Translations under genes and position numbers: made by a program | Shown: piece by piece, positions 10,082-22,538 of the stretch | How the letters are laid out: each line of letters starts with the position of its first letter | Position numbering within the stretch: position 1 is the stretch's first letter | Origin: Desulfobulbaceae bacterium | Lineage (GTDB): Bacteria > Desulfobacterota > Desulfobulbia > Desulfobulbales > Desulfobulbaceae | Reading direction: 5' to 3' | Assembly: GCA_015489765.1 (NCBI GenBank) | Contig: WFZC01000247.1 | Coordinates: 1 to 39,204 of the forward strand | DNA length: 39,204 bases | The notes under the pieces: model-generated | Database searches by the model: none | What the model saw: only the letters and a program-made list of their open reading frames with translations | What the model was told of the DNA's origin: nothing

Positions 10082-12145
10082 CTATTTCCAAATTTTCTGC
10101 ACTGCTTCAAGAAGTATCTTCACCCGAATATCTTCCCGGCGGGAGTGCAGAGTAACAAAGGATAGGGGAAGAGGATAACTTTCCCTGTCCCAGATAACAA
10201 GTTTTCCTTCCCGTTCAGCCGCTCTTGCATCTTCTTCAAGCATAAAATTAAGGCCCACCCCGGCCCTGATCATGGCGCTTATGGCGTTGTCCTGGTCGGC
10301 CCGTAAAATTATATTGGGGAAAAGCCCCAGGTCATGAAACTGTTCTTTCATAACCTGGCAATACGGACATTCCAAAGGATTTCCAATCCAAGGCAGGTCC
10401 GCGATCTCTTCCTTGCTGCCTGTTTGTATCTTCTCTTTCAATGTGACCGGTCCGACTACGCACAACCTTCTGGTGGTCAGGTGGATCTTTGCAAATCCGG
10501 ATTCAGGACAATCACCGTGGATAAACCCTCCTTCCAGTTCCCGGCTGGCAAGTAGTTTTAACACGTTCCCGGAAATGGTCTGGTTGATGCTGATGGAGTA
10601 GCCTGGTGCCATCTGGTAAATGCAGGTGCAGAGCTGTTCGGCCTGGAGTCCCTCGGGATCGGAATTCAGGCCGATACGGATTTCCCTTGTCTGGTGTGCG
10701 GGGAGGGGCCCGGCAAGGCTTGGTCTATCCATCTCCCCAACCAGCCGACCAAGTTCTGCGATCCCCTGTTCCAATTTTTCCGTAAATGGATGGCCGCAGC
10801 TAAGCCGGATGTAATGACTGTATTGATTTGACCCTGAACAGAGGGCTCCCGGAAAAATGGAGATGTTACGTTTTGCAGCCCGGCTCCAAAGCTTGAGACT
10901 GTCAATGGTCTGGCCAAGCTCCACCCACAGGGTATAGCCTCCCTCGGGCACGGAAATCTTTGTTCCTTGCGGAAAATATCGACTGACGGCAAGGGCGGTG
11001 TCCGTGGTCTGTTTTTTCAGACTGTTACGCATTTTTCTCAAATGCCGATCAAAGGTGCCGCCAGCCAGAAATTCGGCAACAACCAGTTGATTGAACTGGG
11101 ATGAGGCAATGGAAATATTGAATTTGAGACGTTTTACCTTTTCCCGGAAGATTCCCGGAATGGTCCAACCCACCCGCAGGTCTGGTATCAGCGTTTTGGA
11201 AAAGGATGAGCAGTAAAGCACCATGCCCCTCTGGTCATAGGCCTTCAGCGGTGTTGGCCGCACATCTCCAAAATAGAGATCACCATAGATATCATCCTCG
11301 ATAATGGGTACGCCCTGGTCGTTCATGACCTGGACCAGCCTTTTTTTGGCCTCGTTGTCCATGGCATATCCCAATGGATTGTGAAAATTGGGATTGAACA
11401 GGGCCGCACGCACGTCATGTTCCTCAAGAATTTTTCCGATCCGTTCCGGGTCGATACCGTGCCTGGAATCCACCGGCACTTCCAGCACCCGCATATTCAG
11501 GTCTTCTATCAACTGGAGATAACAGAGAAATGTTGGTGATTCCACCAGAATAATATCACCAGGCCGGGCAACGGTGCGCAGGCAGAGGTCAATGGCCTGC
11601 ATGCAGCCGCTGGTAATGATGATCTCTTCATTTGATGGCGAGTTGACAAGGCCGGGAATGCGGCGGGCTATCCGGCGCTGCAGTTCCGGCTCTCCTGTGG
11701 GATGACCATAACCGAGTTTCCGGCCCTTCTGATAATGGGAAGTGACTGTGCGCATGCAGGAGGCCAGTTGTTTATGCGGCAAAAGGGCTGGAGAGGGAAC
11801 CGCGGCGCCAAAGGGCAGCATCTCCCTGGAGATGGCCAGTTGGATCATGTCGGCCAGGGTATTGATGGCCACCTTGTGCGGTTTGATCGGGCCGGAGCCC
11901 AATGTCGGCGCCTGAACAAGGCCCCGTAACTGTGGACGGGCATAGAAACCCGATTTTTCCCGCACTTCTACCATGCCGCGATGTTCAAGCTCCATGTATG
12001 CCTGATTTATGGTCGAAATGGACCGCCCGGTTTCCGCATGCAGCTTGCGTAAGGACGGCAGCTTTTCTCCGGCCCGATACCTGCCCGAGAGAATATCTCT
12101 TTCCAATTTGTTCGCCAGTTGAATGTACTGATACTGTCGTCCCAT
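10082..12145 (-). CDS. MocR/GntR-type regulator fused to a LysR effector-binding domain
   Basis: This 687-residue protein starts with a GntR winged helix (residues 1-75: YQYIQLANKLERDILSGRY, KLPSLRKLHAETGRS). A fold-type I aminotransferase domain follows at about 110-460, with the PLP lysine in SSFSKTLIP (about K317). Ordinary MocR proteins end there at 450-500 residues. This one continues for about 200 residues (about 480-687) that read as a periplasmic-binding-protein-like LysR effector domain: REIRIGLNSDPEG, then LADQDN-like strands (RADQDNAISAMIRAGVGLNF). I prefer ATG 12145, with GGGGGA about 10 bases upstream, over the GTG at 12163. It probably senses an amino acid or PLP adduct and controls the downstream exporter. 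Confidence 0.9.
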   Translation of the reverse strand: MGRQYQYIQLANKLERDILSGRYRAGEKLPSLRKLHAETGRSISTINQAYMELEHRGMVEVREKSGFYARPQLRGLVQAPTLGSGPIKPHKVAINTLADMIQLAISREMLPFGAAVPSPALLPHKQLASCMRTVTSHYQKGRKLGYGHPTGEPELQRRIARRIPGLVNSPSNEEIIITSGCMQAIDLCLRTVARPGDIILVESPTFLCYLQLIEDLNMRVLEVPVDSRHGIDPERIGKILEEHDVRAALFNPNFHNPLGYAMDNEAKKRLVQVMNDQGVPIIEDDIYGDLYFGDVRPTPLKAYDQRGMVLYCSSFSKTLIPDLRVGWTIPGIFREKVKRLKFNISIASSQFNQLVVAEFLAGGTFDRHLRKMRNSLKKQTTDTALAVSRYFPQGTKISVPEGGYTLWVELGQTIDSLKLWSRAAKRNISIFPGALCSGSNQYSHYIRLSCGHPFTEKLEQGIAELGRLVGEMDRPSLAGPLPAHQTREIRIGLNSDPEGLQAEQLCTCIYQMAPGYSISINQTISGNVLKLLASRELEGGFIHGDCPESGFAKIHLTTRRLCVVGPVTLKEKIQTGSKEEIADLPWIGNPLECPYCQVMKEQFHDLGLFPNIILRADQDNAISAMIRAGVGLNFMLEEDARAAEREGKLVIWDRESYPLPLSFVTLHSRREDIRVKILLEAVQKIWK

Positions 12146-12264
12146 GCGCTTTCTGTCCCCCACTAACTGTTATGGAATTTTTTCACGCCATCTGCATCTG
12201 TTGCATTGTTACCAGCTTTGGTAGCCTGGGGCAAAGAAAAAAAGATCATCACGGGAGGGGACCT

Positions 12265-13124: not shown

Positions 13125-14597
13125 TTATCGAAAACTGCTGGATTTGATACCATACCGGCGCATCAAACGTTGCAGGGCCTGACGCTCCATGCCACAGCTT
13201 CTTGCAGCGGCGGAAACATTGCCCTTTGAGTCCGTTAATACATGGGACAGGTAAGAACGGGTGAAGTTTTCAACCACCTGCTGCTTGGCCTCCTTGTAGG
13301 TCATGGTCAACAAACAGGACGAATGGTTGATCCCCTCAAAGGGGGCAAGGCTTTCTCCTGCCTCGGGATCAATCAGATCGGCCGGAGTGACATAATTATC
13401 ACGACAGAGCAACACCGCCCGGTTGATGGTATTCTGCAGTTCACGGATATTACCCTTCCATGGCCTCCTGAGCAGACATTGCAGGGCCTCGGGTTGAAAC
13501 TCCACATCCGGACGATCATACTCCCTGGCATACAGTTCCAGAAAATGCTGGGCCAACAGGGGGATATCGCTTGATATGGCGGCAAGAGATGGCATGGTAA
13601 CCGTCATAACGTTAAGCCGGTAAAAGAGATCTTCCCTGAACTCACCCCGTTCAATCTTTTCCTCAAGATTTTGATTGGTAGAGGCCAATACCCGGACATC
13701 AACCTTGATGGTGGCTGTCTGACCAAGGGGCTGGATCTCTTTTTCCTGCAAGACCCGCAGCAGTTTTGTCTGGATGGAAACCGGGATATCGGCAATTTCA
13801 TCAAGAAGAATCGTTGAGCCGTTGGCCTCGAGAAACAGACCGTCCTTGTCCTGGTCCGCGCCGGTAAAGGCGCCTTTTTTATAGCCGAACAACTCACTTT
13901 CCAGGATATGTTCAGGCAGGGCCGGACAGTTGACGATCACCATTTTTCGATCTGCCCGGTCACTCATTGCGTGCAATGCCCTGGCTGCCAGTTCCTTGCC
14001 TGTGCCCGATTCACCCCGGATAAGCACGGTTGCCGGGCTCCTTGCAATCCGGGACAACAGCTCAATTGTTGCCGTCAGCTTTTTTGAACGGCCGACAAAT
14101 TCCATTCCCGGCTGCCGGCTGGTAAGTTTCTGCTGTAATTGCCTGTTTTCACGCAACAGACGGGTCCGTTCAATGGCCCGTTCCACGGCATGGACGATAC
14201 GGTCATTGTCAAAGGGCTTTTCAAAAAAATCATACGCCCCTTCCTTGAGGGCACGCACTGCCATTTCAATGGTCCCGTACCCGGTCATAATAAGCGTGGT
14301 AATGGTTGGATCAAGTTCTTTCAGGCGGCGTAAAAATTCCAGCCCGTCCATACCCGGCATCTTGATATCGGTAAGCACCACATCGGGCATCCGGTTTGCC
14401 GCCAGCTCAAGTCCTTCGGCGCCCGAATCGGCAATATGCACCTCGCATCCACATTTTTTAGAAATAACCTTTCGCAGCAGTTGCAACAGATCCCGCTCGT
14501 CATCAACAACCAGAACCCGTTCCAACCGATTTCTGTGTATATCTTTTGCCTTATTATTTTTAATGTTATTCATCGTCCATAGACCAGCATGACTCAT
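13125..14597 (-). CDS. NtrC-family sigma-54-dependent response regulator
   Basis: This protein of up to 490 residues activates transcription from sigma-54 promoters. The N-terminal receiver domain (VLVVDDERDLLQLL; phospho-acceptor Asp in VVLTDIKMPG, about residue 77) is followed by an AAA+ domain. That domain carries the Walker A motif GESGTGKE, the sigma-54-contacting GAFTGA loop (YKKGAFTGADQ) and Walker B (GSTILLDEIAD). A Fis-type helix-turn-helix closes the protein (VSAAARSCGMERQALQRLMRRYGI). The start is either ATG 14597 or ATG 14573, and neither has a strong ribosome site. No histidine kinase is adjacent, so its partner is unknown. Confidence 0.95.
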   Translation of the reverse strand: MSHAGLWTMNNIKNNKAKDIHRNRLERVLVVDDERDLLQLLRKVISKKCGCEVHIADSGAEGLELAANRMPDVVLTDIKMPGMDGLEFLRRLKELDPTITTLIMTGYGTIEMAVRALKEGAYDFFEKPFDNDRIVHAVERAIERTRLLRENRQLQQKLTSRQPGMEFVGRSKKLTATIELLSRIARSPATVLIRGESGTGKELAARALHAMSDRADRKMVIVNCPALPEHILESELFGYKKGAFTGADQDKDGLFLEANGSTILLDEIADIPVSIQTKLLRVLQEKEIQPLGQTATIKVDVRVLASTNQNLEEKIERGEFREDLFYRLNVMTVTMPSLAAISSDIPLLAQHFLELYAREYDRPDVEFQPEALQCLLRRPWKGNIRELQNTINRAVLLCRDNYVTPADLIDPEAGESLAPFEGINHSSCLLTMTYKEAKQQVVENFTRSYLSHVLTDSKGNVSAAARSCGMERQALQRLMRRYGIKSSSFR

Positions 14598-14626: not shown

Positions 14627-14714
14627 TTACGCTAAAAAACTGTAACTTCTCAATAAGTGGTGATATAAGTCTGGATCCCCGCCCAACAGACTGCGGGGAT
14701 GACGCTCTGAATTG
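14627..14714 (+). repeat. Repeat A, copy 2
   Basis: This matches the reverse complement of 1-88 with about 2 differences. The hairpin arms ATCCCCGC (14675-14682) and GCGGGGAT (14693-14700) are perfect. The shared sequence includes 14 bases (14627-14640) outside the terminal inverted repeat described for 14641-14798. Confidence 0.88.
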
Positions 14715-14798
14715 CCTGCAACTGGGTCATTCCGGCAGGTTGTTGGCCGGAACCCATATAATTAGCAGCAAGTTACCATCAGTTATTGAGAAGTTACA
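14641..14798. mobile_element. MITE-like element with 16-bp perfect terminal inverted repeats
   Basis: The segment begins TGTAACTTCTCAATAA and ends with its perfect reverse complement. With two mismatches the similarity extends to about 22 bases. AAAAAC flanks both ends directly (14635-14640 and 14799-14804), like a 6-bp target duplication. Two REP-type hairpins lie inside (14675-14700 and 14730-14752). There is no coding capacity, so any movement would need a transposase elsewhere. Because copy 1 shares sequence beyond the left end, the true boundary is open. Confidence 0.6.
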
Positions 14799-14950: not shown

Positions 14951-15916
14951 CTAAACAGGCAGCATCAGGACATCCGGGAGATTATTGTATAACTCATCAG
15001 TGGTTCGATACGTCTGCAGGGCCTGGACAATAACCGGCAGCGGTTCACTCCAAATCTCTGGTAGATCCCTTTCCTCAGGTTCATTAACAGGAAATGCCAA
15101 CTGCTCAACTGGTGGGGTAAAGCGGGAATTGACCCCTTCTTTATTGCCGCGGGCATCCGCCCTGTACCAGTTGTATTTTTCAATAAATACAGCATTCAAA
15201 CCGTGCAGGCAGTAGGGAGGTCCATTGTCATCCAGGCTGAGACGCTGGTAGCAAAAACCGACCGGTATGTTTTGCGCCCTAAGCAATGCCGCCAGCAGAT
15301 GACTTTTTGCGTAACAGGAACCTGACCCATGTTCAAGTACCTCTGATGCGGAGCAGGTGACGACCTGGATTTGAAAATCACGGCTGTGCCGAATCTCGTC
15401 CCGCACATATGCAAAAACATTTTTCATATACTCATGGGTGCCATTGCTCCTGGCAAGGATTCTTTGCGAGCACTCACTTATGGATGGATGGCGCCAGTCT
15501 ATAATAGAGGAATTTTCCGTATATTTTTTTTGTTCACATGCCGAAAGCCGGGTGCAGGAAACCTGTCGCGAACTTTTATTTTTTCTTGTCTGCAGAGGAA
15601 AAAAGGCAAGTGTTCCAGCATCAATATCATCAAGGACAGTGCCAAACTCCTCTTTCACCTGTTTGATACCCCAAACAACCTCTGCCGGTGCCTTTGACCG
15701 GACGGCAATATTGTGAATCAGAACTATGACATCTCCCATGTGCTTGAGATTATTGACCGATTCCCAGCTCATGGCCTCATCTATGTGGAATAGCAGTCGA
15801 CCGGAGTTTTCAAAGGGGTGATTATTGACCACTTCCTCCCTGAGATTTAACCAGGCGCCCTGCAGGTCTGACAGTGCGGTTTTGCTGTAGCTATGTTCTT
15901 CCTGGTAAAAAGTCAT
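14951..15916 (-). CDS. Transglutaminase-like (papain-fold) protein with novel N-terminal region
   Basis: This 321-residue protein has the transglutaminase-core triad: Cys in GSGSCYAKSHLLAALLRA (C201), His in YCLHGLNAVF (H238) and Asp in WYRADARGN (D254). Bacterial members are usually cysteine proteases or amidases rather than crosslinkers. No signal peptide is seen, so it is probably cytoplasmic. Residues 1-130 form a separate region that I do not recognise, partly helical, containing MGDVIVLIHNIAVRSKAPAEVVWGIK. It is the last gene of the long minus-strand cluster, directly after the phosphatase fusion. The substrate is unknown; a cluster protein is possible (inference). Confidence 0.8.
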   Translation of the reverse strand: MTFYQEEHSYSKTALSDLQGAWLNLREEVVNNHPFENSGRLLFHIDEAMSWESVNNLKHMGDVIVLIHNIAVRSKAPAEVVWGIKQVKEEFGTVLDDIDAGTLAFFPLQTRKNKSSRQVSCTRLSACEQKKYTENSSIIDWRHPSISECSQRILARSNGTHEYMKNVFAYVRDEIRHSRDFQIQVVTCSASEVLEHGSGSCYAKSHLLAALLRAQNIPVGFCYQRLSLDDNGPPYCLHGLNAVFIEKYNWYRADARGNKEGVNSRFTPPVEQLAFPVNEPEERDLPEIWSEPLPVIVQALQTYRTTDELYNNLPDVLMLPV

Positions 15917-15988
15917 TGCCCTGTCCTGTTTTGCCTCATTTTTCCACCATGAGACATATATTTATCAAAGGTTCGGCATGAGATCCGA

Positions 15989-17062
15989 TTATTTGCTGTT
16001 CTCTGCCTGCCGGTGCGCCGACAACATGGTGGTAAAACATTCCTGGACAAACCGGCCGGAAACCGTTTCAGCCATGGAAAAATTCAGACCCTTATCCGGG
16101 GGAAATGCGCCCGTCAGGGCAAGGAACACGTCTCTGGATAGATTTTCCAGCATTGCCGAAAAGTTGTCCCGCAGCTCGACAGACAGTTCGGTCCCCTGCC
16201 AGCGGCATCGAAACGGCCTGTAGCCGGGCGCCATACATCGACCACCTTCCAGTAACGGACAGGGAGATTCAGCCGCATCATAAATTTCGCTAAACTCCTT
16301 GTCCGCAAGAGGAGGATAATTGCTATGAAGTGTGCGAATTGTTCGAATGACCGAAGCACATTCCAGGGCATGCTCAAGCACATGTTCACGGTCATCATGA
16401 CTGAAGGTACGATTGATATACTGGTGAATGCGGATACTTTCGGCAAGCCCAAGTTCAAAATAGTGATAGCAGCAGCGGTCATCTTCAATACCGCAGGTGG
16501 AGGCGCCATGGAGCGTGGCAAGTTCCCGTTCGAGTTCAGAGGCAATGGCATCATACTCATCGATAAATGAAGAGAGATCAACACAACTCTTTTTATTTTC
16601 AATCCTTGGATCAACGGCACACAGCACCCCCTGCTGCTTATGGTACTTACGCAACAATTTCCACTGACTGAAATTGGTTGGGTTGGCGCGGGTATTTTTC
16701 AGTAGTTTTTCCGCCTTTTTCAGGCTCAGTCCCCGTCGCAGCAAATAGGCGGAAATAAAGGTGCCGGTCCTGCCATGGCCATGCCGGCAATGGACCAGGA
16801 CTTTTTTGCCGAGATAAATAGCCTCGTCAAGCCATTCCAGCGCCTTTTCCATATCCTGCAGGGCTGGGACCTGTTCATCGGGCGTGGGCAGGTAATAGAC
16901 CTCAAAACCAGCCTCTTCCTCTATCTTGTGGAGATCGGTAAACTCCCCACACAGGTTGACAATGGCATCGATTCCCTGCTCTTTTATGGAGGCAAGCTCG
17001 TCATAGGACATGGGCGCCCTGCCGCCTGCGAGTTGATTTGTTATCCAGGTTAGTTCATACAT
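15989..17062 (-). CDS. Dual-specificity phosphatase fused to a YkgJ-like Cys-cluster domain
   Basis: This 357-residue protein joins two modules. Residues 1-150 are a cysteine-dependent protein phosphatase with the P-loop HCRHGHGRTGT (catalytic C92) and a plausible general-acid loop near PTPDEQ. Residues 180-300 carry cysteines in the order C190, C197, C198, then CPLLEGGRC (C268, C276) and RPFRCRW (C286). This matches the YkgJ-type zinc/iron-binding pattern (CxxC-type, CC ... CPxL..G.C...RP..CR). The fusion suggests metal- or redox-responsive dephosphorylation (inference). It lies between the PPDK-like and transglutaminase-like genes, and the ribosome site is weak. Confidence 0.82.
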   Translation of the reverse strand: MYELTWITNQLAGGRAPMSYDELASIKEQGIDAIVNLCGEFTDLHKIEEEAGFEVYYLPTPDEQVPALQDMEKALEWLDEAIYLGKKVLVHCRHGHGRTGTFISAYLLRRGLSLKKAEKLLKNTRANPTNFSQWKLLRKYHKQQGVLCAVDPRIENKKSCVDLSSFIDEYDAIASELERELATLHGASTCGIEDDRCCYHYFELGLAESIRIHQYINRTFSHDDREHVLEHALECASVIRTIRTLHSNYPPLADKEFSEIYDAAESPCPLLEGGRCMAPGYRPFRCRWQGTELSVELRDNFSAMLENLSRDVFLALTGAFPPDKGLNFSMAETVSGRFVQECFTTMLSAHRQAENSK

Positions 17063-17151
17063 TCTGTTTATTCACTGTCGGGCATCACTTGAACGGATCA
17101 GGGGACGAAAACGTGTCAGCAAAGAATATGGCAGGGAAGATACATTTTTCC

Positions 17152-19707
17152 TCACCCCGGGACCATGGATTTGGTAAAAGTGTATTGACCATTAAAAAAC
17201 TGATCAACACATCGCTGGACGTCCTCTTCTTCCCGCAGGACCATGTCCATCAGTTTTGTTGCTCCAAGCAGTCTGCCAAGCATATCCAACACTGCTGTCA
17301 GTTCCTTTTCTTCAACTTCCACCATTTTGGCATCAAGAAGATCGGCCTTGACGGTCACTTCAAACCCAAGGCGGGAGAGTACCTGTTCCAGGAATTCAAG
17401 GCGAAGGAAGCGTCCGGTCCAGGCGCCGCCGCCACCGGCAAATCGAATCAGGCAGAAATTTGTCCGGGCATCCTCACCGCAAATCGTGTCAACCAGGGTG
17501 AAATGATAGCCGAATCGAATATTGAAGTTGAGATAGTCCTCACTCATAATGGCATAGGAGGCAAACTCGCTGGAGTCAGTGCCAAATAAAAAGCCACCGG
17601 ACATAACAATTTCATCCGACCGTTTCCAGTCAAAATGGCTGTGCGACTGCCAGTCTATACCTGGATGGGAAAGCCCCTTCCACAAGGCGCAAAAGGGCTG
17701 ACAACAGATTTCCTCTATGGTTACGCTGTCTTTTTCCTGGGCACCCGGACAGATTCCTTTACCAACATCCAACAGGTTAATGGCAAGGGGAATATCGGTT
17801 ATCAGATTTTTTTTACTCCGGCCGCTGCCCTTTTCACCGAGTGAAAACATGGTCTGCATTGCCCTTTCATGGGTATAGCGGATAATATCATGCAGGGACC
17901 GGCAGAGTTCCGGCAGGAAATCCTTGCTTTCAGGATCAACCATGCGCAGCGGTGTAATAAACTCCATGATCGCCTTCAACCGGCGGGTATAGGGAAGATT
18001 TTCTTCCGCACTTTCTCCCCTGGGGGTGGCCGCCAATTCAATTAAGCCCTCATAGACCTTTAAATTGTCGGCATCAACGGTTACCGGTTGACCGGGTTTA
18101 AGAACTTTAAGGGCATTGGCAACATCAATCAAAAGCGGGATATTAAACTCCCGACAGACCGTTGAGAAATGGCCGGCAATGGTACCCTTTTCAGCCACCA
18201 CTCCGGCAATTTTTCCAAGCAGTCGAACCAGAGAGGGCGGTGTTGAGCCGGCAACAAGTATGGAGCCAGGCTGGATATCTTCCAAGGATTCTGCACCGGC
18301 CACAACCACGGGACCTGAACCAATACCTCCGGCTGATTTCTGGCCGCCGGCAAGCAGGACCTTCATTTTTTCCAGTTCCGCTCTCCTGTTGGTGTCCAGA
18401 ACAGAGGCTTTCTTCCTTTTTTCCCGGTGCAGGGGGCGGGATTGGAGAATAAACAAGGAGCCATCTTCGGTATATGCCCACTCAATATCCTGGGGCTGAC
18501 CGTAGAGTTTTTCAATGCGGCTCGCCCACTGGCCGAGTTCAAGCAGTTGATCCTGCCCCAGGCAAAACCGCTTCTTTTCAGTGGCAGACAACGGTATTTC
18601 CTCAAGTCGTCCCGAGGCCAGCAACAATTTTTTTTCCTGGGTGCCCTTTATCTGTTCGATGATCCGGCCACCGTCACGGGTAAGCAGGGCCCGGTCGCCA
18701 ACCGCCCGGCCGGCAACCAGCACCTCGCCCAGGCCGTAAATTGCGTGGATGGCCATCTGCTCTGATTCATTTTCTTCCCCTCCACCATTGGTATAAACAA
18801 TGCCGCTGACCGCGGCATCCACCATGGACAGAACCAGCACCCCCATGGACGCCTCTTCATCGGCAAGCCCGAGGGTGATCCTGTAAAAAAGGGCCTCTGG
18901 GGAATATTTCGAGGCCAGCACCTGTCGATAGGCATCAAGAACGGTTTCCCTGGTAACGCCAAGCTCGGTATGATACTGACCGGCAAAAGAATGATCGCTG
19001 TCTTCACTGACAGCCGAGGACCTGACCGCGGTCAACACCGCAGCGCCCCGCTGTTGTTCCATCTTGTCATAACCGTTTTCAATGGCCGTTACAACTTCGG
19101 GCGGAATGGTTGCGGAAAGTATCAGGGCCCTGAGTTGACGGGAATACTCGTCAAGTCCGGTTGTATTTTCAAGATCTATCCGGGCTAAAATGGCATCCAG
19201 GGACGGACGCAGGTTATTAAACTCCAGCACCCGATGAAAGGAAGAGGTACTGATAACAAACCCGTCCGGTACCGGCGCTTGTAACTGCCGATGAAGCTTT
19301 GCCAGGTTAAATGCCTTGTTTCCGCTCAGCCGATCATCGTTTATGTTGGAAAAATCAATAACATATGGCTCAGTCATAGGTTGTTCCGGCGGGGCAAGCA
19401 GAAAACGGACATAAAAATCAAGTTTTCTGTGGTACTGCATGAGCGTTGTTGCGTCTGACGGCTGGAGAATGGCAAGACTTGAAATCATGGAGCGGACAGC
19501 ATTGGAAAAATCGGTAAATACGGCACGAACACCGGCCATGTCAAGACGTTTGCCCTCATGGTAGAGTACTTCAAGCTCGGCCATTAGATCATGGGCACGG
19601 GCATCATGTTTGAGCAGGTCCTTAAAGGCCTCATAGGTTTGCCGGTGGATGGTATCCGGGGAAAAAATCTGGTACGACCAACGCTTAAACAGTGTATTTA
19701 GGAACAT
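17152..19707 (-). CDS. PEP synthase/PPDK-like protein lacking the PEP-binding barrel
   Basis: This 851-residue protein starts with a helical region (1-110). An ATP-grasp PPDK_N domain follows at about 115-440 (RLSGNKAFNLAKL; AVRSSAVSEDSDHSFAGQYHTELG; DIEWAYTEDGSLFILQSRPL). A phosphohistidine swivel domain lies at about 470-555, with its His in GTIAGHFSTVCREFNIP (H513) in the position of the usual TSHxAIVARE. The C-terminal 290 residues do not show the PEP/pyruvate TIM-barrel motifs and are unrecognised. It may therefore phosphorylate itself with ATP but not make PEP. It starts 3 bases after the thiL stop codon and shares the operon with enzyme I and HPr. Confidence 0.85.
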   Translation of the reverse strand: MFLNTLFKRWSYQIFSPDTIHRQTYEAFKDLLKHDARAHDLMAELEVLYHEGKRLDMAGVRAVFTDFSNAVRSMISSLAILQPSDATTLMQYHRKLDFYVRFLLAPPEQPMTEPYVIDFSNINDDRLSGNKAFNLAKLHRQLQAPVPDGFVISTSSFHRVLEFNNLRPSLDAILARIDLENTTGLDEYSRQLRALILSATIPPEVVTAIENGYDKMEQQRGAAVLTAVRSSAVSEDSDHSFAGQYHTELGVTRETVLDAYRQVLASKYSPEALFYRITLGLADEEASMGVLVLSMVDAAVSGIVYTNGGGEENESEQMAIHAIYGLGEVLVAGRAVGDRALLTRDGGRIIEQIKGTQEKKLLLASGRLEEIPLSATEKKRFCLGQDQLLELGQWASRIEKLYGQPQDIEWAYTEDGSLFILQSRPLHREKRKKASVLDTNRRAELEKMKVLLAGGQKSAGGIGSGPVVVAGAESLEDIQPGSILVAGSTPPSLVRLLGKIAGVVAEKGTIAGHFSTVCREFNIPLLIDVANALKVLKPGQPVTVDADNLKVYEGLIELAATPRGESAEENLPYTRRLKAIMEFITPLRMVDPESKDFLPELCRSLHDIIRYTHERAMQTMFSLGEKGSGRSKKNLITDIPLAINLLDVGKGICPGAQEKDSVTIEEICCQPFCALWKGLSHPGIDWQSHSHFDWKRSDEIVMSGGFLFGTDSSEFASYAIMSEDYLNFNIRFGYHFTLVDTICGEDARTNFCLIRFAGGGGAWTGRFLRLEFLEQVLSRLGFEVTVKADLLDAKMVEVEEKELTAVLDMLGRLLGATKLMDMVLREEEDVQRCVDQFFNGQYTFTKSMVPG

Positions 19708-19710
19708 GCC

Positions 19711-20715
19711 TCACCCCTTGTTGAAATGATCGAATCCATGAAACGACACCGGAACTTCCCTGTCCTGCAGAGACGGATCATCCCGAACAAGGGTGACCTC
19801 CTTCCCTGTTGTCATCGTGCCGACAGGATACAAGATATCGCCGCTCTCTGCCACCAGTTCCTGCAATTTTTTTGTTGCATGTGATGGTACTGTAAACAGC
19901 AACTCATAATCCTCGCCACCGCTGATCTTCCAGGGCAGGCTTTCCTGCTTCAACAACTTGGCGGCTTGCTCAAGAAGAGGATCCTCGGGCAATTTATCCT
20001 GGTAAACAACAGCGCCAAGACCGCTCCGGCCGCAAAGATGGGCAAGGTCGGTTGCCAGACCGTCGGAAAGGTCCATCATTGCGTGGACAACTCCGCTTGC
20101 GGCGAGTTTTTTGCCAAGCCCCACCCTGGCCCTGGGATCAAGATGGGCCTGATACAGTTCAGCGAACCTGTCAACGTGGCCCATATCCCTTTTAAGCAGC
20201 TCAAGACCGGCTGCCGCCCTGCCAAGGAGGCCACTGACATAGATCATATCACCTGCCCTGGCACCATGACGGTAAAGCACCTGCTCTGCCGCCATTTCCC
20301 CGATCACGCACAGGCTCATGGTGACTCCCCCCGGACTAGCAACCGTATCGCCGCCGATAAGTGTGCATCCGTAGTGGCTGCACGCCTTGGCAACACCATC
20401 ACTTAACAAAAGGACCCATTTTTCATCAAAACCGACCGGCAGGCCAAGGGAAAATAACAAGAATCGCGGCTCTCCTCCCATGGCGGCTATATCGCTTACA
20501 TTCACGGAAACAGCCTTTTTCCCCAACAGTTCAGGTGGATGAAAACTCCGATCAAAGTGGACCGATTCAACCAGGGTATCGATGGAATACAACAGCACCT
20601 CGTTGTCATCTTTGCGCGTTACAGCGCAATCATCGCCTATGCCGCACAGTAGGGAGGGACTTTCGGTAACTGAGGCGCGGGCCTGGATGGCGGCAATAAG
20701 ATCTCTTTCTTTCAT
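19711..20715 (-). CDS. thiL: Thiamine-monophosphate kinase
   Basis: This cytoplasmic enzyme of 334 residues makes thiamine diphosphate from thiamine monophosphate and ATP, the last step of the pathway. Typical PurM-like ATPase motifs are present: CGIGDDCAV, YSIDTLVESVHF, AVSVNVSDIAAMGGEPRF, GGDTVASPG, MMDLSDGLATDLAHLC and SGGEDYELLF. I take ATG 20715, whose codon overlaps the enzyme I stop as ATGA, rather than an in-frame TTG at 20724. No other thiamine gene is near, so it is probably a passenger in this operon or is linked through the energy and pyruvate theme. Confidence 0.96.
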   Translation of the reverse strand: MKERDLIAAIQARASVTESPSLLCGIGDDCAVTRKDDNEVLLYSIDTLVESVHFDRSFHPPELLGKKAVSVNVSDIAAMGGEPRFLLFSLGLPVGFDEKWVLLLSDGVAKACSHYGCTLIGGDTVASPGGVTMSLCVIGEMAAEQVLYRHGARAGDMIYVSGLLGRAAAGLELLKRDMGHVDRFAELYQAHLDPRARVGLGKKLAASGVVHAMMDLSDGLATDLAHLCGRSGLGAVVYQDKLPEDPLLEQAAKLLKQESLPWKISGGEDYELLFTVPSHATKKLQELVAESGDILYPVGTMTTGKEVTLVRDDPSLQDREVPVSFHGFDHFNKG

Positions 20716-22538
20716 GGATGACAAAACTCCTCGGGATAATGACGGGGAAGATACCGGCCGAGATATCGGTGAATTTCATCCACGTCCCGACAACCGAGTA
20801 TCCTGTTGCCAAGGGCCGCCAGTTCCTGATAGCGTGATCCTCGCAACAGGCGCCTGACATGGGGGATAGCAGAAGGGCGCATGGAGAGTTCATCAAGGCC
20901 AAGTCCGAGCAGAACCGCCGCGCACATCGGATCACCCGCCATCTCGCCACACATGGCAACTTCTATGCCCTGCTGATGGCCGGCATCAACGGTCTGTTTT
21001 ATCATCCGCAGCACCGCCGGATGAAGGGGTTCATACATATGGGCCACGTATTGATTGCCCCGGTCAATGGCCAGGGAATACTGGATCAGATCATTGGTGC
21101 CGATACTGAAAAAATCCACCTCAGTGGCAAGGGAGTCCGCAAGAATGACGGCGCTGGGCACCTCGATCATGATCCCGACCTCAACCCGGTCATCATATGG
21201 GATTTTTTTCCGCTCAAGTTCACGAGCCGCCTGGGCGCAGATGGCTTTGACAGCCAACACCTCCGAAGGTGAAGAAATCATGGGCAGCAGTATACGCAGC
21301 CGGCCATGGACAGAGGCCCTGAGCAGGGCACGTAGCTGGCGGATGAACAGGGCCGGTTCCCGCAGGGAATAGCGGATGGAACGGAGGCCAAGGGCGGGAT
21401 TACGCTCGAGATCAAGCCGGGGGCCGGTATGGGGAAGACGGTTGCTGAATTTATCACCTCCCACATCAAGGGTGCGGATGGTTACCGGCAATGGCGCCAG
21501 GGCCGCAACCATTTTGCCGTAGATGCGGGCAAGCATCTCCTCGTCGGGCAGGGAGGAGTGGGAAAAAAAGTCAAATTCGCTTCTGAAAAGACCGATCCCT
21601 TCGCCGCCATTATGCTGGATGGCCGCTATTTCAGCGGGCATTTCAATGTTACCGGCAAGACGGACCCGATGCCCATCCAGGGTCTCGGAACTCAAATCGG
21701 CATAATGGGCAAGGTCTCGGCTGGAACACCGGTGTTGCCGGTCATATTCCCGGTACTGGTTGAGCTGGTCGGGTGTCGGATGCAGGCAGACGCGGCCGGA
21801 AAATCCGTCCAGGATTACCCGGTCACCGGAACCGCATATACAGGTAATGTCCTTGGCGCCGACAACGGCGGGGATGCCAAGAGACCTGGCCACAATGGCT
21901 GTATGGGAGGTTATCCCGCCTTCCTCTGCGATAAAGCCGAGAACGGTATCAGCCCGCATGTGCAGAATATCTTCAGGAGAAAAATCGTGGCCGATGACAA
22001 TAACCTTTGCCCTGTCATCACTGAGGATCTCATCCGCTTTGCCGGAGAGCACACCGAATATACGGTCGGCAACATGCTTGACATCCATATACCGCTGCTT
22101 GATATAGGGGTCATCAATGGCATCAAATTTCTTTTTAACCAGTCCCAGCGCCGTTGCCAGGGCCCACTGGGCGTTGATATGGTGACTGCGAATAATTTCT
22201 ACAGTCCGATCAAGGATCATCCGGTCCTTGAGCATGAGCAGATGGGAATCAATAATGGAGAGGGCATCGGAGAGATCATCGGCCAGGCTGGCACGCAGTT
22301 GCCGTAGTTCCTGTTCCGCCGTGGTGACCGCCTCCCGGAACCTCCGGATTTCACGATCGATCCGGTCCGGCGTCAGCCTGCGCCAGGCAGCGCTGCCTGT
22401 CCTGCGTCTGAATACCCGGGCCGGCGCAATAACAATACCGGGAGAGGCGCCGATACCAAAGATGATCTGCGGCTCTTCGCAGGAGAGCTTTGCCTCGAGA
22501 TCGGAATCAACCTTCCTGTTGCTTTCCTGGTCAACCAT
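20712..22538 (-). CDS. ptsI: PTS enzyme I (phosphoenolpyruvate-protein phosphotransferase)
   Basis: This 608-residue cytoplasmic enzyme takes phosphate from PEP and passes it to HPr. The N-terminal HPr-binding and swivel domain has the active histidine in GGITSHTAIVARSLGIPAVVG (H212). The C-terminal PEP-binding barrel is intact (GIGLFRSEFDF; RTLDVGGDK; GIMIEVPSAV; DFFSIGTNDLIQY; CGEMAGDP). Its start overlaps the HPr gene by 8 bases. About 30 residues precede the usual IFGIGASPGI start and are variable. With no enzyme II in the window it may serve a regulatory phosphorelay. Confidence 0.96.
   Translation of the reverse strand: MVDQESNRKVDSDLEAKLSCEEPQIIFGIGASPGIVIAPARVFRRRTGSAAWRRLTPDRIDREIRRFREAVTTAEQELRQLRASLADDLSDALSIIDSHLLMLKDRMILDRTVEIIRSHHINAQWALATALGLVKKKFDAIDDPYIKQRYMDVKHVADRIFGVLSGKADEILSDDRAKVIVIGHDFSPEDILHMRADTVLGFIAEEGGITSHTAIVARSLGIPAVVGAKDITCICGSGDRVILDGFSGRVCLHPTPDQLNQYREYDRQHRCSSRDLAHYADLSSETLDGHRVRLAGNIEMPAEIAAIQHNGGEGIGLFRSEFDFFSHSSLPDEEMLARIYGKMVAALAPLPVTIRTLDVGGDKFSNRLPHTGPRLDLERNPALGLRSIRYSLREPALFIRQLRALLRASVHGRLRILLPMISSPSEVLAVKAICAQAARELERKKIPYDDRVEVGIMIEVPSAVILADSLATEVDFFSIGTNDLIQYSLAIDRGNQYVAHMYEPLHPAVLRMIKQTVDAGHQQGIEVAMCGEMAGDPMCAAVLLGLGLDELSMRPSAIPHVRRLLRGSRYQELAALGNRILGCRDVDEIHRYLGRYLPRHYPEEFCHP

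Follow-up and report, generated by a model that had tools for sequence, protein, structure and literature searches.

What is the function of the three closely spaced genes on the minus strand of contig WFZC01000247.1 from a Desulfobulbaceae bacterium (39,204 nucleotides, hereinafter the window; one of the 387 contigs of a 3.9-Mb assembly), and do these genes form one system? A preliminary description of this DNA identified them as a PPDK-like protein that lacks the phosphoenolpyruvate (PEP)/pyruvate-binding barrel, a fusion of a phosphatase with a cysteine-rich domain, and a transglutaminase-like protease, and combined the three in a single regulatory or modification module. The three same-strand open reading frames (ORFs) and all three family assignments withstand Pfam searches and alignment analysis; the gaps between the genes are 89 bp and 72 bp, respectively. 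The conserved unit, which may be a regulatory or modification system, consists of the PPDK-like protein (PPDKL) and the DSP-type phosphatase (DSP), a pair of a kinase-type protein and a phosphatase that is supported in Desulfobacterota by gene adjacency, by gene fusions and by membership in a single clade. The named genomes closest to that of the window are metagenome-assembled genomes of Desulfobulbaceae.

A scan with a profile of the PPDKL C-terminal domain (CTD), using one genome per species, detects 119 relatives, and the named loci are the best 80 of these 119 (L numbers designate individual loci), mostly from Desulfobulbaceae, Desulfocapsa, Desulforhopalus, Desulfogranum, Desulfobulbus and other Deltaproteobacteria. 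The next same-strand gene after PPDKL encodes a DSP in 73 of the 77 testable loci, usually at a distance of 0-100 bp; 71 of these are apparent from gene order, and two (L251 and L260) were added by tblastn, which recovers DSP genes obscured by ORFs on the opposite strand, at least in L178, L251 and L260. The true exceptions are L206, L208, L209 and L241. Among the 74 genomes of the GTDB family, 43 encode a DSP, which is located directly beside a close PPDKL homolog in 37 genomes; in the remaining six (G004, G005, G008, G011, G013 and G044), there is mostly one gene at a contig end. In G114 and G149, the two genes are neighbors but convergent. Natural fusions, that is, single ORFs encompassing PPDK_N, the phosphohistidine domain, CTD and DSP, are present in two loci (1259 aa, L160 7013-10789; 1252 aa, L161 1483-5238) from genomes G344 and G457, which belong to another family. 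Across the phylum, a full-length DSP is encoded in 42 of the 395 genomes, and the CTD is present in all 42. A FastTree phylogeny built from 125 PPDKLs places all 91 members that are linked or fused to a DSP in one clade (local support 98), with none outside it, and the DSP/no-DSP label changes 6 times vs about 29 in shuffles; at least three of the eight PPDKLs inside this clade that appear to lack a DSP are ORF-calling artifacts. This tree topology supports a partnership that arose once, was mostly inherited vertically and was lost on occasion; because the loci are not independent samples, the pairing is given here as counts, with no probability attached. The upstream genes differ between lineages (PTS enzyme I and thiL, Lon and MltG, or TauE/SafE transporter genes), so that PPDKL-DSP stands out as the conserved core. 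Literature searches identified no description of this pair.

PPDKL combines the ATP-grasp and His domains known from dikinases. A Pfam search detects PPDK_N (PF01326) at residues 128-439 (4.6e-76) and the mobile/His domain of PEP-utilizing enzymes (PF00391) in a central position, at residues 478-547 (6.4e-16). The predicted phosphohistidine H513 does not vary across an alignment of 48 relatives and is present in every one of the 125 PPDKL sequences, of which at least 97% also retain the ATP-site residues K131, R229, E409, Q422 and R424; K131 and R229 align with K22 and R117 of rifampin phosphotransferase (RPH), which are needed for activity or resistance (PMC4844700). An AlphaFold2 model built from 48 sequences (mean pLDDT 85) comprises long helices (residues 1-104), the ATP-grasp domain, the His domain and a C-terminal alpha/beta domain. 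Residues 113-561 of the model superpose on RPH, PEP synthase and PPDK (VIA Z up to 39); the top match is RPH 5hv3 (Z 39.2, rmsd 3.4, 419 residues), and PEP synthase 2ols scores Z 38.5 (rmsd 4.3, 380 residues). The identity to PEP synthases of the 2ols/8a8e type is 24-29% over residues 111-572. The order of the ATP-grasp and His domains is the same as in PEP synthase and PPDK (PF01326 + PF00391 + PF02896), but PPDKL differs from these enzymes by the absence of the barrel, by a 110-residue helical N-terminal extension and by the pairing with DSP. Elsewhere, the window genome encodes two barrel-bearing PEP synthases (L004 and L108), which argues that PPDKL is not the housekeeping PEP synthase, and one RPH-like dikinase (L109).

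The CTD is not a PEP barrel. There is no Pfam match to the PEP-utilizers_C barrel (PF02896) in PPDKL; hhalign comparison of the CTD with the barrel of PTS enzyme I gives a probability of 1.8%, and comparison with a combined PEP synthase/enzyme I profile gives 0.1%, whereas the positive control, the PEP synthase barrel against enzyme I, yields 99% (1e-18). In the AlphaFold2 model, the CTD contains a run of adjacent strands (residues 717-758) instead of the alternation expected of a barrel. These results rule out a barrel and agree with the preliminary description, for which such a fold would have been fatal. The CTD shows no meaningful Pfam match among 29 members, nothing better than E 0.08 against PDB sequences, and no match in a search for plasmid-borne copies; alignment of its profile with the middle domain of L109, the RPH-like dikinase, has a probability of 0.1%, although the use of a single template sequence limits the sensitivity of this comparison. 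The domain is nevertheless strongly constrained: the motif H606-D607-x2-R610-x2-H613-E614, together with Y725, H735 and R769, is at least 97% conserved in the 125 sequences. Judging from this conservation, the CTD looks like a new acceptor domain, with the H606-E614 motif as its putative acceptor pocket.

The partner of PPDKL is a 357-residue protein that matches DSPc (PF00782, 5.8e-16) and Tc-R-P (9e-18) in Pfam. The catalytic HCX5R(S/T) loop (H91, C92, R98 and T99) and the Asp general acid D62 are present in 35 of the 35 DSPs compared, and the structural model (pLDDT 83.5) matches the PTP fold with Z 21. Residues 1-145 share the fold and the catalytic motif with archaeal and bacterial DSP-type phosphatases (Z 20-21, 22-32% identity) such as Tk-PTP, SsoPTP and ShufPTP, from which DSP differs by a C-terminal cysteine-rich extension of about 210 residues and by the conserved link to PPDKL. 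The extension includes the conserved residues C190, C197, C198, C268, C276 and C286, each retained in 31-35 of the 35 proteins, with the signature CPLxxGxC...RPxRCR. A weak match to PF03692 (CxxCxxCC/YkgJ, putative zinc- or iron-chelating) is detected in 17 of the 35 DSPs at E<=1 (best 7e-4), the DSP of the window itself being unmatched. DSP is apparently reduced to the phosphatase part in L256 and L264, both from symbionts of Olavius worms. Separately, in some Desulfobulbaceae (L111, L113, L117 and L127), a small stand-alone protein with a CxxCxxCC/YkgJ-like cysteine pattern is encoded next to the NtrC gene 3' of DSP; by eye, its cysteine domain is of the same kind as the DSP C-terminus.

RPH (PMC4844700) and HpeHI (PMC12167813) are established cases of dikinase chemistry with a swapped acceptor domain, and PPDKL resembles RPH and the HpeHI/phenylphosphate-synthase-type dikinases in combining the ATP-grasp and His parts with an exchanged acceptor domain. 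Given this chemistry, PPDKL is expected to phosphorylate H513 from ATP and to pass the phosphate on. In RPH, the acceptor domain is followed by a C-terminal His domain; in PPDKL, by contrast, the His domain is central and the unmatched domain comes after it. The available parts of the RPH and HpeHI papers mention no paired phosphatase, such as PPDKL possesses (PMC4844700, PMC12167813).

We propose that PPDKL and DSP are two halves of one reversible phosphorylation cycle, with PPDKL acting as a dikinase that uses ATP and carries a new acceptor domain, a proposal for which our confidence and our doubt are about equal. By analogy with the known dikinases, the ATP-grasp domain would move a phosphate from ATP to H513, yielding AMP and Pi; the His domain would then swing, and the phosphate would pass to an acceptor, a small molecule, a polymer or a protein, held by the CTD at the H606-D607/R610/H613-E614 site, which would take over the place of the PEP/pyruvate barrel. 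DSP would strip the same phosphate from the PPDKL product, possibly gated by its cysteine-rich, putatively metal-binding domain. That DSP acts on the same phosphate is the simplest reading of a phosphatase that is dedicated to PPDKL and, in some species, fused to it; we also infer the individual enzymatic steps, the substrate shared by kinase and phosphatase, and the metal gating. Three considerations weigh against this proposal. The CTD is found in 146 of the 395 genomes of the phylum, and many PPDKL paralogs work without a DSP, so that DSP is dispensable for the basic reaction; a phosphatase that adjoins a kinase can act on the kinase itself; and the structure search with the whole PPDKL model barely tests the CTD fold, because the matches listed cover the ATP-grasp and His parts alone. 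Still more tentatively, and leaning slightly toward doubt, we suggest that the pair is an undescribed writer/eraser system of Desulfobacterota that is tied to two-component control: a family of dikinases with a novel acceptor fold would phosphorylate a single target in the cell (a metabolite, a polymer or a protein), and a dedicated metal-domain phosphatase would reverse the modification.

The alternative that fares best, albeit an unlikely one, is that DSP acts on PPDKL rather than on its product and removes an inhibitory or activating phosphate or the phosphohistidine, in the manner of the bifunctional regulatory protein of PEP synthase and PPDK. The strict pairing and the fusions fit this possibility equally well, as does the restriction of DSP to one PPDKL clade. 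However, the HpeHI paper places the regulated threonine of PEP synthases two residues ahead of the catalytic histidine, in the motif GGXTS/CHAA (PMC12167813), and this position is occupied by Ala511 in PPDKL and by alanine in 82% of the DSP-linked clade. In PPDKL paralogs without DSP, threonine is the most frequent residue at this site (54%), so that the classical target is lost where the phosphatase is gained. Regulation of the PEP synthase kind through this threonine is ruled out for most DSP-linked members, and the pair does not have a dedicated protein kinase as a conserved neighbor.

We consider it rather improbable that PPDKL is part of a histidine phosphorelay that feeds or drains the neighboring two-component systems (histidine kinase, CheY-like and NtrC-type proteins), with DSP in the same chain, although the genomic context prompts this idea. 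Of 56 loci, 49 have a two-component gene within 5 kb downstream of the pair, and 33 have an ntrC gene on the same strand within 2.5 kb downstream. Two-component genes reach a density of about 0.3-0.4 per gene over the 6 kb immediately downstream, compared with about 0.02-0.14 over the 7.5 kb immediately upstream. PPDKL paralogs, too, sit between response regulators and histidine kinase or NtrC genes. However, the two-component genes differ in type and orientation and are missing at some loci, which suggests that their role may be limited to the control of expression; the usual substrates of DSPs are phosphoesters rather than phospho-Asp or phospho-His; and the conserved CTD motif resembles an acceptor pocket. 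In many lineages, PPDKL-DSP is probably expressed together with two-component/sigma54 genes. No convincing sigma54 promoter is identifiable upstream of PPDKL in the window; the -24/-12-like sites detected in several loci precede the downstream operon of a membrane protein and a histidine kinase, not PPDKL.

In plants, a 'writer', glucan, water dikinase, is opposed by a DSP-type 'eraser' (SEX4), and animals possess laforin. A bacterial analog of the glucan cycle, in which PPDKL would phosphorylate glycogen or another polysaccharide and DSP would remove the phosphate, involves the same pairing of enzyme classes, and glycogen phosphorylase is enriched in genomes with DSP (28 of 42 vs 97 of the 353 others, odds ratio 5.3), in the same direction within the four informative families (Mantel-Haenszel p ~5e-4). 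We nonetheless regard this analogy as quite improbable. The phosphorylase association comes from few independent lineages and is confounded by descent, and 14 of the 42 DSP genomes, most of these well over 90% complete, lack the phosphorylase, which rules out an obligate glycogen link. Furthermore, Pfam detects no carbohydrate-binding module in PPDKL or in the CTD set, the domain order is unlike that of glucan dikinases, and no glycogen gene is recognized beside the pair, among neighbors that are not all typed. A glucan substrate for PPDKL is hypothetical.

The transglutaminase-like protein (Transglut_core, 5.4e-12) is a neighbor of the pair in a single lineage. Its gene adjoins the pair in 2 of the 80 named loci (L188 and L189) and, among the 20 genomes of the family that encode a transglutaminase, only in the genus of the window (G000, G010 and G013, plus G009, where the gene is truncated); in the 16 other genomes, the homologs are unlinked to the pair, about 200 aa long, and match just the C-terminal two thirds. 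In relatives without this gene, DSP is directly followed by the NtrC-type gene, so that the transglutaminase gene appears to be inserted between DSP and ntrC. Thus, although the three genes are on the same strand, with short gaps, and are kept together in several genomes of this genus, a single system of kinase, phosphatase and protease is hardly credible: examination of co-occurrence, which the preliminary description itself had called for, sustains the kinase-type and phosphatase part of the proposed module and largely refutes the protease part, although the protease may have an accessory role within this genus. Between the transglutaminase gene and ntrC (window positions 14640-14760), the DNA contains a sequence resembling an inverted repeat, CATCCCCGC...GCGGGGAT, which may be the remnant of a small mobile repeat close to the apparent insertion site of the transglutaminase gene.

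The trio is the distal end of a longer same-strand run that starts with PTS enzyme I and thiL (Table 1). These two genes are located upstream of PPDKL only in the Desulfobulbaceae arrangement. An obligate PTS link is ruled out given that four DSP-bearing genomes (G030, G424, G443 and G225) have no match to the enzyme I family PF05524, which, in any case, is nearly universal (368 of 395 genomes of the phylum). PADLOC identifies no defense-protein model matching any of the three proteins, and an anti-phage defense function was dropped from consideration.

Table 1. Features of the locus in the window
Feature	Coordinates	Strand	Basis and remarks
PPDKL, 851 aa	17152-19707	-	Pfam, AlphaFold2 model, structural match; residues 1-110 helical; ATP-grasp domain (PPDK_N) 128-439; swivelling His domain with H513, 478-547; CTD ~572-851
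PPDKL C-terminal domain (CTD)	17155-18000	-	Alignments; not a PEP barrel
DSP-type phosphatase, 357 aa	15989-17062	-	DSP domain 1-145 and C-terminal Cys domain; Pfam, alignment, model
Transglutaminase-like protein, 321 aa	14951-15916	-	Pfam Transglut_core; lineage-specific neighbor, outside the conserved unit
Sigma54-type response regulator, NtrC family	13125-14597	-	Pfam; ~350 bp downstream of transglutaminase; in most relatives, immediately after DSP
thiL, thiamine-phosphate kinase	19711-20724	-	NCBIfam TIGR01379, 2.6e-94
PTS enzyme I	20712-22538	-	NCBIfam TIGR01417, 5.6e-158; sole PF05524 match in the genome

PPDKL paralogs without DSP occur in distinct neighborhoods. In seven loci (L092, L098, L099, L101, L102, L103 and L105), the paralog is accompanied by an Alph_Pro_TM (PF09608) protein and a TauE/SafE-type transporter, often with NtrC and histidine kinase genes, which suggests a link between the PPDKL family at large and TauE/SafE (TSUP) transporters; a paper on the sigma54 regulome of D. 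vulgaris describes TSUP/PSE transporter operons with an unknown substrate and does not mention PPDKL (PMC4641369). In three loci (L091 2464-5028, L101 3794-6355 and L102 4412-6973), the paralog is encoded directly behind a membrane protein with a DUF202 and a receiver domain (confirmed by Pfam at L102 6986-8158); L091, from the genome of the window itself, has the paralog ahead of histidine kinase and NtrC genes.

Two unusual domain architectures were also observed. Downstream of the PPDKL-DSP-NtrC genes, locus L234 (16327-19173, plus strand) encodes a PhsA-like molybdopterin oxidoreductase with an N-terminal TorD/DmsD-like chaperone domain (PF02613), that is, chaperone and client in one chain; 949-aa homologs are present in L165, L168 and L170. 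In the window (10082-12163, minus strand), a 693-aa GntR/MocR-type regulator carries about 200 extra C-terminal residues that, by eye, resemble a substrate-binding domain of the LysR type; if real, this fusion is unusual.

Dikinases of this superfamily switch chemistry by exchanging the acceptor domain, with pyruvate, rifampin and phenols as the acceptors. PPDKL is a widespread, multi-copy branch, the acceptor domain of which matches no library, and one clade of this branch is tightly coupled to a phosphatase, to the point of gene fusion. Many genes of sulfate reducers that are annotated as 'PEP synthase/PPDK' probably do not make PEP. If PPDKL and DSP indeed share a substrate, they would constitute a bacterial dikinase/phosphatase cycle that can be tested in cultured strains carrying the pair, namely Desulfogranum mediterraneum DSM 13871, D. 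marinum DSM 2058, Desulfobulbus rhabdoformis DSM 8777 and Desulforhopalus singaporensis DSM 12130.

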